Shown here: positions 18,256 through 21,944 of the stretch, piece after piece | Layout of the letters: each line of letters starts with the position of its first letter | Position numbering within the stretch: the stretch's first letter is position 1 | Notes under the pieces: model-generated | Told to the model about the DNA's origin: nothing | Databases searched by the model: none | What the model saw: the letters and a program-made list of their open reading frames with translations, nothing else | Made by a program: the position numbers and the translations under genes | IMG/VR virus record: IMGVR_UViG_3300033999_000364 | Span: 1 to 22,991 of that record | DNA length: 22,991 nt | Source: a virus | Strand: one strand, 5' to 3'

Positions 18256-20322
18256 ATGGGTAGTTTTAATAGTACAATTATCACTGCAAAAGGTCATGCA
18301 CTAATGGCAAAAGTTGCTTCAGGTGCAAGTATGCAATTCACAAGAATTCGTACTTCAGATTATCAATATCCTGTGGGAACAAATTTTGAAGGATTAACAA
18401 GCTTATCAAGTGTAAAACAAACAACTCTTGTTTCAAGTGTTTCAAGAATTAATGATGTTGCGGTAAAAGTAAGTGGTGCTTTTACCAATGCAGAACTTTC
18501 AACGGGGTACTATTTAAGGGTTATCGGATTATATGCCAATGACCCTGATGAAGGCGAAATCTTATATTCAATAACCACTGCAAACCAAGCTGACTGGATA
18601 CCACCAAACAATGGAATAAGTGCATCCAGCATATTGATTGATTTAATTACTATTGTTTCAAATGCTACAAATGTTACTATTGATGTTGACCCAAATGCAG
18701 TTGCAACAGTTACTGATTTGAATATGGTTAAAGCTGAAATATCTGATATAAAAGGCTTCATTGGTTATACAGATGATGATATTGTTGGTGTTGAAGCTGA
18801 TTTTAAAAATAAAAAATTTACAAGGCTTGCCGGTGCAGTAAATAAAAATCCTGGTGCTGACTTTGATTCAATTAAAGCCTTTGGTGGAAGAAAAAGATGC
18901 ATTGTAACTGATGATGGAAAGGTTCTTGCTTATTATGGTGAACCTGGGTACAGTGAAACCGGTAAGACAACAGTTGAAATTAAAAAGAATTCAGTTACTT
19001 ATCCGGTTGGAACAATAGTTCAGGTTATGGTAGAACAACCAAAATTCTATTATAAGGTTGTTCCTTTGGAACTTGAAAAAATACCTGATTATGTTGAAGT
19101 GAATACTCTTACAGTAACAGCAGGGGCAACAGCAGATGGGAATTTGACCATTACACTTGATGGTGTGGCTTTCACAGTTTCAGTTTTTGCTACAGATAAC
19201 ACACCTGAATTAGTTGCAGCAAAAATTAGAAATGCAACTTATACTGGTTGGACTACCGGTGGAACTGGTGCAAAAGTAACCTTTACTTGCAATACACCTG
19301 GTACAAAAACAACTGCAACATTTAATGGTGGTTCAACTGGTGTTACTGCAACAGTTGAAAAGACGGTTGCTGGTAGTATAAGTATTGGATACCATATGAG
19401 AAAAGCAAGATATTATGTATCTGATACTTATAAACCTGGCTTCAAAGTACATCCTGCTTTCATCAGAAATGGTGTAGTAAAAGATAAAATTTACTTGTCA
19501 GCCTATGAAGGCAGCATCTATGATGTATCAGCAGCAGCTTATTTATTGGCTGATGAACAGGTTGCTGATTTTACTGTTTCCACAGGTGATAAGCTTTCAT
19601 CCATTGCTTATGCTAAACCAGCAAGCGGATTAACACAAAACCTTACAAGGGCAAATACAAGAAAGCTTGCTAATAATAGGGGTGCTGGATGGCAGTTGTC
19701 AGATGTTCTATCTGCATCAGTAACCCAAATGCTTTTTATTATTGAATATGCATCCTTTAATACACAAGATAAGATTGGCTTGGGTATTGTAAATAAAACT
19801 GATGATGGTTCAACTAATATGAGTGAATTAACAGGTGCAACCACAAATTTAGGTAATGCTTCAGGAATAGCAGCCGGAACAAACGGATTGACTTCAGTTT
19901 CATATCGTGGTGAAGAAAATCCTTGGGGTAACATTTGGAAGTGGATGGATGGACTTAATATTGAAGCAAAAGGAATCCATCAAGCTTATTGGGCTGATAG
20001 TGGTTTTGCTGATGATATTAAAACCTCACCTTATAAAAATTGTGGTTTCACACTTGCAAAAGCAAATGGTTATGTATCAGCCTTTGGATACAGTGAAGAT
20101 TGTGATTTCTTATTCTTACCTTCAGAAGTAATTGGTGGATCTAACTTACCGGTAGGTGATTACTTCTATCAAAACCACAATTACAACGGGTTCTTGGTCG
20201 CTCTGTTGGGTGGCAGTTGGAATAGTGGTTCGAATGCTGGTGCTTTCTATTGGTATGTGAATGTTACGTCTTCTAGTCGTAGTCGGGCTATCGGCGGTCG
20301 GCTGCTGTATGTACCACAGTAA
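18256..20322 (+). CDS. Tail fibre / receptor-binding protein, DGR target
   Basis: This 688-aa protein carries the DGR variable repeat and is the likely host-recognition fibre. Residues 1-160 resemble tail-collar fibre N-termini: SFNSTIITAKGHALMAKVASG, a basal attachment domain. Residues about 279-377 look like an inserted Ig-like beta domain (EVNTLTVTAGATADGNLTI, then GGSTGVTATVEKTVAG), placed between a KFYYKVVPLELEKIPDY strand and GYHMRKARYYVSDTYKPGF. The C-terminus, about 420-688, is a C-type lectin/formylglycine-type domain as used by DGR targets: NPWGNIWKWMDGLNIEAKG, then LLGGSWNSGSNAGAFYW and SRAIGGRLLYVPQ. The VR covers residues 644-686, and hypervariable positions sit in this exposed end. 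ATG 18256 has AAAGGTGGAAAG upstream. Confidence 0.94.
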   Translation: MGSFNSTIITAKGHALMAKVASGASMQFTRIRTSDYQYPVGTNFEGLTSLSSVKQTTLVSSVSRINDVAVKVSGAFTNAELSTGYYLRVIGLYANDPDEGEILYSITTANQADWIPPNNGISASSILIDLITIVSNATNVTIDVDPNAVATVTDLNMVKAEISDIKGFIGYTDDDIVGVEADFKNKKFTRLAGAVNKNPGADFDSIKAFGGRKRCIVTDDGKVLAYYGEPGYSETGKTTVEIKKNSVTYPVGTIVQVMVEQPKFYYKVVPLELEKIPDYVEVNTLTVTAGATADGNLTITLDGVAFTVSVFATDNTPELVAAKIRNATYTGWTTGGTGAKVTFTCNTPGTKTTATFNGGSTGVTATVEKTVAGSISIGYHMRKARYYVSDTYKPGFKVHPAFIRNGVVKDKIYLSAYEGSIYDVSAAAYLLADEQVADFTVSTGDKLSSIAYAKPASGLTQNLTRANTRKLANNRGAGWQLSDVLSASVTQMLFIIEYASFNTQDKIGLGIVNKTDDGSTNMSELTGATTNLGNASGIAAGTNGLTSVSYRGEENPWGNIWKWMDGLNIEAKGIHQAYWADSGFADDIKTSPYKNCGFTLAKANGYVSAFGYSEDCDFLFLPSEVIGGSNLPVGDYFYQNHNYNGFLVALLGGSWNSGSNAGAFYWYVNVTSSSRSRAIGGRLLYVPQ
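20187..20311 (+). repeat. DGR variable repeat (VR)
   Basis: This 125-bp repeat at the 3' end of the fibre gene aligns without gaps to the TR at 20368-20492. It differs at 22 positions, every one an A in TR: 18 are G, 3 are T and 1 is C in VR. The changes hit 20 codons; 5 are silent (TTA to TTG, CTA to CTG) and 15 change the residue, including Asn to Ser, Tyr, Val and Ala. Confidence 0.98.
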
Positions 20323-20335
20323 TTAATATTTCTAT

Positions 20336-20347
20336 GGGCAAGTAAAA
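20336..20347 (+). repeat. Left arm of inverted repeat bracketing the TR
   Basis: GGGCAAGTAAAA is the exact reverse complement of TTTTACTTGCCC at 20514-20525. It lies 20 nt before the TR and the partner 21 nt after it, so in RNA the two arms could close a 190-nt stem-loop holding the whole TR. Confidence 0.85.
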
Positions 20348-20367
20348 GATATTCTAATATTAAAAAC

Positions 20368-20492
20368 CAGGTTCTTAGTCACTCTATTAGGTGGCAATTG
20401 GAATAATGGTTCGAATACTGGTACTTTCTATTGGAATGTGAATAATACGTCTTCTAATCGTAATCGGAATATCAGCAGTCAGCTACTAAATG
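20368..20492 (+). repeat. DGR template repeat (TR)
   Basis: This 125-bp repeat is the invariant template. It has 37 adenines, 22 of which differ in VR, and 88 non-A bases, none of which differ. Read in the VR frame it encodes a CLec-type end with 11 Asn codons, all AAT, of which 8 are altered in VR. AAY codons can diversify to many residues but not to stops when only the A positions change. Confidence 0.98.
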
Positions 20493-20513
20493 CACTATAA
20501 ATCATAATGTAAG

Positions 20514-20525
20514 TTTTACTTGCCC
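20514..20525 (+). repeat. Right arm of inverted repeat bracketing the TR
   Basis: TTTTACTTGCCC is the perfect complement of the left arm at 20336-20347. It is followed directly by the small hairpin at 20526-20537, so the two helices could stack. Confidence 0.85.
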
Positions 20526-20626
20526 TGCCTCTTGGCAAAACATAAAAATCAACTACTGCTGTATTGGTAGGCTTCATTTGAAGTTCGACGATTCAGCAAT
20601 AGTGCATACAAAAGAAGGTTGACAAC

Positions 20627-21685
20627 GTGAAGCGATATGGGAATTTATACAAAAAGATTTATGATTTAGATAATTTAAGGCTTGCACATAAGAATGCCAA
20701 GAAGGGAAAAGGATGGTATAAGGAAGTTAAAATGGTTGATGCTGATGAAGAATATTATTTGAAGTTGCTTCAAGAAATGCTTATAAATAAAACCTATAAT
20801 ACTTCCGAATATGAAATCTTTATTAAAAAAGATGGTGAAAAGGAACGTGAAATATATAAATTACCATATTTCCCTGATAGAATATGCCAATGGGCAATTC
20901 TGCAAGTAATTGAACCTATACTAATAAACAATTTTACCAAAGACACCTATTCAGCCATACCAGGAAGGGGAATTCATCAAGCTTTAAAAAGATTAAAAGC
21001 TGCAATTCAAAATGATGTTCCAGGAACACAATATTGCTTGAAGCTTGATGTTAAAAAGTATTATCCATCAATTGACCATAATATTTTGAAAGCAAAATAT
21101 AGAAGAATTTTCAAAGATAAAGATTTATTATGGTTGCTTGATGAAATCATTGATTCAACACCTGGTGATGTAGGAATACCTATTGGAAATTATCTTTCAC
21201 AGTATTCAGGCAACTTTTATTTAAGTTCTTTTGACCATTGGATTAAAGAAGTCAAGAAAGTGAAGTATTACTTCAGATATATGGATGACATTGTAATCCT
21301 GGGAAGCAGTAAGGAAGAACTTCACAAATTAAAAATAGAAGTTGATGAATATTTAAGAAATAAATTAAATCTTACCATCAAAGAAAACTGGCAGGTATTT
21401 CTTACATTTATAAGGGGAATTGATTTTGTTGGATACAGGGTTTTCTTAAACTATACATTACTTCGGAAATCAACTTGTAAAAGCTTTAAGCGAAAAATGC
21501 GAAACATCAACAAGAAAAGGCTAAATGGTCAAGAATTGAATTATTCTGAATGGTGTTCAATTAATTCTTATAAAGGTTGGCTGAAGTGGTGTGATAGTTA
21601 TAGATTAAGTCAAAAGTACATTAAGCCTATTGAACAATTTGCACAGGATTATTATGAAAAATATGTTAAAAGAAAGGTGGATTAA
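20627..21685 (+). CDS. DGR reverse transcriptase
   Basis: A 352-aa reverse transcriptase that copies the template RNA with misincorporation at adenines. Motifs in order: an N-terminal KRYGNLYKKIYDLDNLRLA segment seen in DGR RTs, LKLDVKKYYPSID at 138-150 (catalytic D141), IGNYLSQ at 186-192, the I/LGxxxSQ form that marks DGR RTs in place of the usual QG motif, and the catalytic YMDD at 218-221. A thumb-like region with RGIDFVGYRVF (263-273) follows. Length is typical. The start is GTG with AAGAAGG about 8 nt upstream. It lies right after TR in the usual order VR-TR-RT. No frameshift or missing catalytic residue is seen, so the enzyme looks intact. Confidence 0.97.
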   Translation: MKRYGNLYKKIYDLDNLRLAHKNAKKGKGWYKEVKMVDADEEYYLKLLQEMLINKTYNTSEYEIFIKKDGEKEREIYKLPYFPDRICQWAILQVIEPILINNFTKDTYSAIPGRGIHQALKRLKAAIQNDVPGTQYCLKLDVKKYYPSIDHNILKAKYRRIFKDKDLLWLLDEIIDSTPGDVGIPIGNYLSQYSGNFYLSSFDHWIKEVKKVKYYFRYMDDIVILGSSKEELHKLKIEVDEYLRNKLNLTIKENWQVFLTFIRGIDFVGYRVFLNYTLLRKSTCKSFKRKMRNINKKRLNGQELNYSEWCSINSYKGWLKWCDSYRLSQKYIKPIEQFAQDYYEKYVKRKVD

Positions 21686-21686
21686 A

Positions 21687-21944
21687 ATGAAGGATTATGG
21701 AAGGGTAAGAAGCACAATAAGCCCAAAACCCATGGTTATTGATGAATTCAGTGTATGGATTCATAAAAACATTACTGAAGTCAGTGAAAATGTTGGTGAA
21801 GAAAATGAATTCATTGGCTATGAATATGACATGATTCAGTATGAAAAAGATGAATACATTGAATTACTGTCAGAACAGAATGAAACATTTTTAGAAACCC
21901 TGGACACTCTTATGTCAGAAGTGATTCCATCTTTAATGATGTAG
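21687..21944 (+). CDS. Small conserved tail-region protein
   Basis: An 85-aa acidic protein beginning MKDYGRVRSTISPKPMVID, with EFIGYEYDMIQYEKDEYIEL in the middle and a helical C-terminus. Genes of this type are commonly seen after tail fibre genes of low-GC phages, in the position of PBSX XkdW, and may be fibre assembly factors; the role is not established. ATG 21687 follows AGAAAGGTGG and starts 1 nt after the RT stop; the in-frame ORF extends upstream but lacks a better site. It does not look like Avd: it is shorter and lacks the basic four-helix pattern. Confidence 0.8.
   Translation: MKDYGRVRSTISPKPMVIDEFSVWIHKNITEVSENVGEENEFIGYEYDMIQYEKDEYIELLSEQNETFLETLDTLMSEVIPSLMM

Follow-up and report, generated by a model that had tools for sequence, protein, structure and literature searches.

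A phage reverse-transcriptase locus as a probable tail-fibre diversity-generating retroelement, with a candidate pseudoknotted template RNA and an apparent neighbour rule in adenine copying

The stretch of viral DNA analyzed here (the window) is the 22,991-bp IMG/VR record IMGVR_UViG_3300033999_000364, in which terminase is followed by head and baseplate genes and then by a fibre gene; it is therefore a late region of a tailed phage. Because the nearest relatives of its reverse transcriptase (RT) among genomes belong to metagenome-assembled genomes (MAGs) of Clostridia, a clostridial host is likely. Between positions 18,256 and 21,685, the fibre gene, a pair of repeats and the RT gene together make up what is very probably a diversity-generating retroelement (DGR) directed at the tail fibre; with the RNA and copying steps described below, this is the best explanation of the locus. 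The genes and repeats are the following.

18256..20322, plus strand: tail fibre target, 688 aa, with a predicted C-type-lectin-like C-terminal domain (Phage_tail_fib, phrog_5302, structure model)
20187..20311, plus strand: variable repeat (VR), with 22 differences to the template repeat (TR), all at TR adenines
20309..20320, plus strand: 3' continuation of VR that resembles an initiation of mutagenic homing (IMH) element, with non-A mismatches to TR from 20312
20368..20492, plus strand: TR, defined by the repeat comparison and unchanged between near-identical relatives
20627..21685, stop included, plus strand: DGR reverse transcriptase, 352 aa, GTG start (RVT_1, phrog_1423, bRT 8ub7, BPP-1 RT)

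An ungapped comparison at an offset of 181 aligned VR 20187-20311 with TR 20368-20492 over 125 bp and returned 22 mismatches, which occupied 22 of the 37 TR adenines and none of the 88 non-A positions (hypergeometric P = 5.5e-15). A repeat arising by chance was ruled out at this P-value. The same recomputation found 20 altered codons, five of them silent, so that both sets of counts given in an initial annotation of this DNA were reproduced exactly. The count of 0/88 hinges on where the repeat is taken to end, which we set at the first non-A mismatch (VR 20312 / TR 20493). Past this point a weaker similarity continues to about 20320 (VR ATGTACCACAG, TR ATGCACTATAA) and looks like the IMH/IMH*-type end of a DGR; in most relatives the first VR/TR mismatch falls at +4 from the last mutated A. 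Directly downstream of VR there was no inverted repeat of at least 20 nt, shorter ones being without a systematic test.

The RT open reading frame (ORF) is intact and carries the DGR-type motifs that the initial annotation had pointed out, IGNYLSQ (with SQ in motif 4) and the catalytic YMDD. The protein matches Pfam RVT_1 and phrog_1423, and its nearest solved structure is 8ub7 (E 7e-35), which we take to be the BPP-1 enzyme (bRT), the best group II RT reaching only 3e-16. Alignment with the BPP-1 RT gave 32% identity over 329 columns and brought the GIPIG..SQ and RYMDDIV motifs into register. Models of group II, Drt and retron enzymes gave matches below threshold, which might be taken to mean that the RT is of another class (a group II intron, retron or antiviral DRT enzyme) and that the repeat beside it is incidental. 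However, the NCBIfam matches all lie far under their cut-offs, bRT is the best solved structure by a wide margin, and most relatives have an A-specific repeat together with the RT; we give such an origin practically no chance, and on the scores a group II, retron or DRT identity was ruled out.

To follow the repeats beyond the window we used about 120 relatives, all encoding RT: 80 loci from viruses, the best of 236, and 42 from genomes, here numbered with the prefix L. Counts for the clade refer to 71 non-redundant clostridial loci. In an ungapped scan, most of the relatives had an A-specific VR/TR pair beside the RT, and in the clade 1753 of 2626 TR-adenine sites were changed, compared to 31 of 5658 other sites. 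The initial annotation had predicted that VR would vary at the A-matched sites while TR stays constant, and near-identical relatives behaved in this way, differing in VR almost only at TR-adenine sites with TR and RT constant. L027 and L030 differ in VR at 19/38 A sites and 0/77 others (TR 0/115; RT 0/1035), L110 and L120 at 18/30 A sites and 1/87 others (TR 0/117; RT 1/996), and L050 and L095 at 13/37 A sites and 0/78 others (TR 0/115). L014 and L024 form a further near-identical pair with varying VR and constant TR.

Some loci departed from the common pattern. Two close RT relatives, L007 (4528-4845) and L009 (925-1250), had best repeat pairs with 7 A and 8 non-A mismatches and with 12 A and 10 non-A mismatches, respectively; these are possibly decayed or re-arranged DGRs, or mispairings by the scan. 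Scattered non-A mismatches were seen in L039, L041, L044, L054 and L086, for example. In the clade, 19 of the 31 non-A mismatches were T>G, several of them at one TAT codon (Tyr to Asp), and a second, rare copying error is a possible source. Outside the Clostridia, one short TR matched two different places in each of L100, L102, L106, L107, L111 and L117, a pattern that suggests two VRs per TR.

The target of the retroelement is the fibre, as VR occupies the extreme C-terminus of its ORF. The N-terminus matches Pfam Phage_tail_fib, and the protein also matches the tail protein family phrog_5302. When the last 310 aa were modelled from an alignment of 34 related targets (pLDDT 82.6), the best PDB match was TaqVP of Thermus aquaticus (5vf4, E 3e-11), a DGR variable protein, with Mtd variants weaker. 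The modelled fold supports a fibre end of the C-type-lectin-like DGR variable protein kind, in line with the initial annotation, and the likeness to TaqVP is one of domain only (15% identity, TM-score 0.55 over the query). By analogy with BPP-1, variation of the fibre could switch host range. The identification of a tail-fibre DGR has thus held up on RT homology, A-specific pairs in most relatives, VR-confined variation and the fold of the target.

Between TR and the RT gene lies a spacer with a known RNA family, from which two long-range covarying helices extend past the bounds of the family model. The RNA elements are the following.

20336..20347, plus strand: clamp helix 5' arm, GGGCAAGTAAAA, 12 bp perfect, with covariation
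20490..20498, plus strand: predicted priming duplex, TR-side arm, ATGCACTAT (IMH*-like), one base past the last mutated A
20514..20525, plus strand: clamp helix 3' arm, TTTTACTTGCCC, pairing with 20336-20347
20521..20611, plus strand: RT-17 RNA of the TR-RT spacer (Rfam RF03020; 61.5 bits, gathering score 40.4)
20599..20607, plus strand: predicted priming duplex, spacer-side arm, ATAGTGCAT, 19 nt before the RT start

The RT-17 match in the window covers the full covariance model, and 11 of the 12 relatives examined carried the RNA in the corresponding position. This comparison ties Rfam RT-17 to DGR spacers; a full-text search of the accessible literature returned no paper naming both RT-17 and DGR, and an earlier link is possible.

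The clamp helix, which joins the 5' flank of TR to the start of the spacer, consists of 12 perfect pairs and has a score reached by 2 of 1000 dinucleotide shuffles. Its arms change together in relatives (for example GGGCAAACA/TGTTTGCCC, GGGTAATAAGT/GCTTATTACCC and GGGTCAGACAAT/ATTGTCTGACCC). When the neighbouring hairpin, in place of pairing, was used to anchor the 3' arm (42 loci with the anchor; 27 without it were excluded), the pairing score was 1126 for own arms compared to 696 +/- 24 for arms swapped between loci (0/5000 permutations). A MAFFT alignment of 26 loci had nine aligned pairs that were 100% paired, six of the nine changed on both sides, and RNAalifold also proposes the helix. 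Single-sequence folding did not show it (z -2.9).

The second helix, the predicted priming duplex, begins on its TR side exactly one base past the last mutagenised adenine. An exact 7-mer complement in the spacer was present at that offset in 22 of 63 relatives, the mean elsewhere being 0.39, and own arms beat swapped arms in 5000 of 5000 permutations; L093 and L078 have diverged versions. The search was noisy when unanchored (11/80 above null) and resolved once anchored at the last mutated A. Within the spacer the arm of the clamp lies ahead of that of the priming duplex, so that the helices cross each other, and the comparative evidence indicates that the template RNA is a conserved pseudoknot. 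Covariation supports this fold, which offers start and stop points open to testing, in a lineage where Avd, an accessory protein of DGRs, was not detected.

Three observations weigh against a tail-fibre DGR at work in this phage. The first is that VR is identical in L002, the sole other copy of this phage, which matches the window over 7365 bp at 100%. The description of an acting retroelement in the initial annotation therefore stands for the relatives, with their VR-confined variation, but in the window phage itself activity is something we infer. An identical VR would also be found if the DGR was once active and is now silent in the window phage, its VR/TR differences being a frozen record. 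We consider this improbable: the RT ORF with YMDD, the TR, the RNA helices and the target ORF are all intact, non-A divergence is zero within 125 bp, close relatives show active variation, and L002 and the window possibly come from linked samples.

The second is the missing accessory protein. Avd is required in BPP-1. A search with NF033474, which as a positive control finds BPP-1 Avd (E 2e-32), returned no match in the window, nor in the phage contigs (37-53 kb) of 14 relatives. PF05635 was uninformative on this point because the control BPP-1 was also without a match. No HRDC domain was found in the phage contigs, with positive controls matched. The majority of known DGRs carry Avd (PMC10053308). 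Nevertheless, its absence is not disqualifying, because some DGRs lack Avd and the window itself is a fragment, and absence from fragments is no proof. Avd homologues were seen elsewhere in two MAG assemblies, on contig 163 of G021 (the MAG of L092) and on contig 72 of G022 (L094), and both assemblies also carry a DGR of the window type. In the window, a small acidic ORF (21630-21944) overlaps the RT end; it matches phrog_18126, a family of unknown function, and is not Avd-like by model search.

The third is the substitution spectrum of the window, with 18 A>G, 3 A>T and 1 A>C; 18/22 A>G is non-random, and this skew was absent from the initial annotation. The relatives attribute it to neighbour context. 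Alignment of their TR and VR sequences separated two kinds of TR adenine, those in AAY codons and those followed by G. AAY-codon adenines appear in VR as roughly 0.4 A, 0.25 G, 0.12 C and 0.18 T. Sorted by the next template base, the adenines of the clade were read as follows.

A before G: 456 G, 5 A, 1 T, 1 N (G at 456/463)
A before C: 193 G, 45 A, 4 C, 2 T
A before T: 501 A, 253 G, 137 C, 88 T
A before A: 322 A, 274 G, 260 T, 85 C, 1 N

The window has G at all six of its A-before-G sites, and pairs of close phages differed at 3/70 A-before-G sites compared to 85/136 A-before-A and 69/140 A-before-T sites. The simplest reading of these sequence comparisons suggests that the copying process reads a template A before G as G. 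The initial annotation had treated all 37 adenines as mutable sites; changes are indeed confined to A, but equal mutability is too simple, because an A before G nearly always comes out as G. If the context rule is true, counting every adenine overestimates how many positions are mutable and how large the repertoires are.

Selection acting on the protein or the VR DNA, in place of template copying, could also leave G before G, and many A-before-G sites lie in codons for conserved residues (the GGR close to the C-terminus). Such an origin could explain nonsynonymous sites but hardly synonymous ones: at fourfold-degenerate third positions A before G gave G in 69/69 cases. Several caveats apply: only a few columns contain these synonymous sites, the VRs that were sequenced have survived selection, the loci are related by descent, and the synonymous site 20307, which is before A, is also 94% G. 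Further points speak for copying: a T, C or G that TR carries at the same position is retained in VR, and several A-before-G TR columns vary between A and G only (A42/G27 at 20296, A55/G13 at 20212 and A11/G58 at 20239), as expected if A and G are read alike. Most TR adenines in AAY columns are nearly invariant. The same trend, weaker, was found in 18 loci of other phyla, with 46 G, 9 A and no C or T for A before G. Taken together, we regard selection as a tenable source of the rule, though one with less than an even chance. VR edges that are never overwritten are unlikely as the cause of the fixed G, as non-A positions there co-change in TR and VR; in L003 and L018 this segment encodes IGGGAVYVP and in most others IGGRLVYVP.

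An earlier survey described the substitutions as essentially random, G being the most frequent outcome (PMC3521204). According to a 2026 study of BPP-1, the 3' neighbour is what chiefly determines the outcome; misincorporation of C (A-to-G) predominates, and A-to-C is elevated before C (PMC12875486). In contrast to this elevation, A before C was read as C at only 4/244 sites in the clade here, which rules out 3'-neighbour slippage as the general cause of the A-before-G rule. The near-deterministic reading of A before G appears to be new relative to the known 3'-neighbour effects.

In the copying scheme we propose, the region from before TR through RT would be transcribed, and in the RNA the 5' flank (20336-20347) would pair with the spacer start (20514-20525) and clamp TR. 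The spacer end (20599-20607) would pair with TR at 20490-20498, just past the last mutable adenine, and the spacer strand at this duplex may prime cDNA synthesis into TR, which the clamp would probably stop; both roles are assigned by analogy with published work on BPP-1, where a spacer adenine primes cDNA in IMH* and a motif at the avd 3' end terminates it (PMC12875486). The RT would misread A according to the next template base, giving G before G and randomised bases before A or T, and the cDNA would replace VR in the fibre gene and so alter residues of the C-type-lectin-like tip. For the clade as a whole, we are evenly divided on the combined proposal that A before G is near-deterministically read as G, with its TR sites drifting between A and G, that only A before A or T is randomised (mostly in AAY codons), and that the pseudoknot clamp and priming duplex limit mutagenesis without a detected Avd.

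The BPP-1 DGR (bRT, Avd, TR, Sp and Mtd) resembles the window system in its adenine-specific TR-to-VR transfer, homologous RT, tail-protein target of C-type-lectin fold, spacer between TR and RT, and upstream flank complementary to the spacer. BPP-1 differs in having Avd and, by complementarity, in the order of its spacer arms, which is reversed and gives nested helices, whereas the clamp arm comes first in the window. The upstream:spacer match of BPP-1 was unlikely by chance (1/300), but its 7-bp TR:spacer match was not significant (168/300); we take its priming site to be Sp A56. Rfam RT-17 (RF03020) models only the spacer part, so that the clamp 5' arm, the TR and the TR-side duplex arm lie outside it. 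Like the window system, viral DGR clades described by Roux et al. 2021 (PMC8144416) are phage-borne and have tail-protein targets, with gut Firmicutes among the predicted hosts. As a tail-fibre DGR the locus is of a known kind, one of many thousands, and the comparative context result matters more; its RNA architecture, undetected Avd and A-before-G reading set the clade apart and make it worth study.

One further site adjoins the predicted priming duplex. At the adenine of TR 20489 (window VR 20308), VR has T in all 56 relatives that have this adenine, compared to about 20% T at other sites. The T encodes a conserved Tyr, and either selection or a special first-nucleotide effect may account for it.

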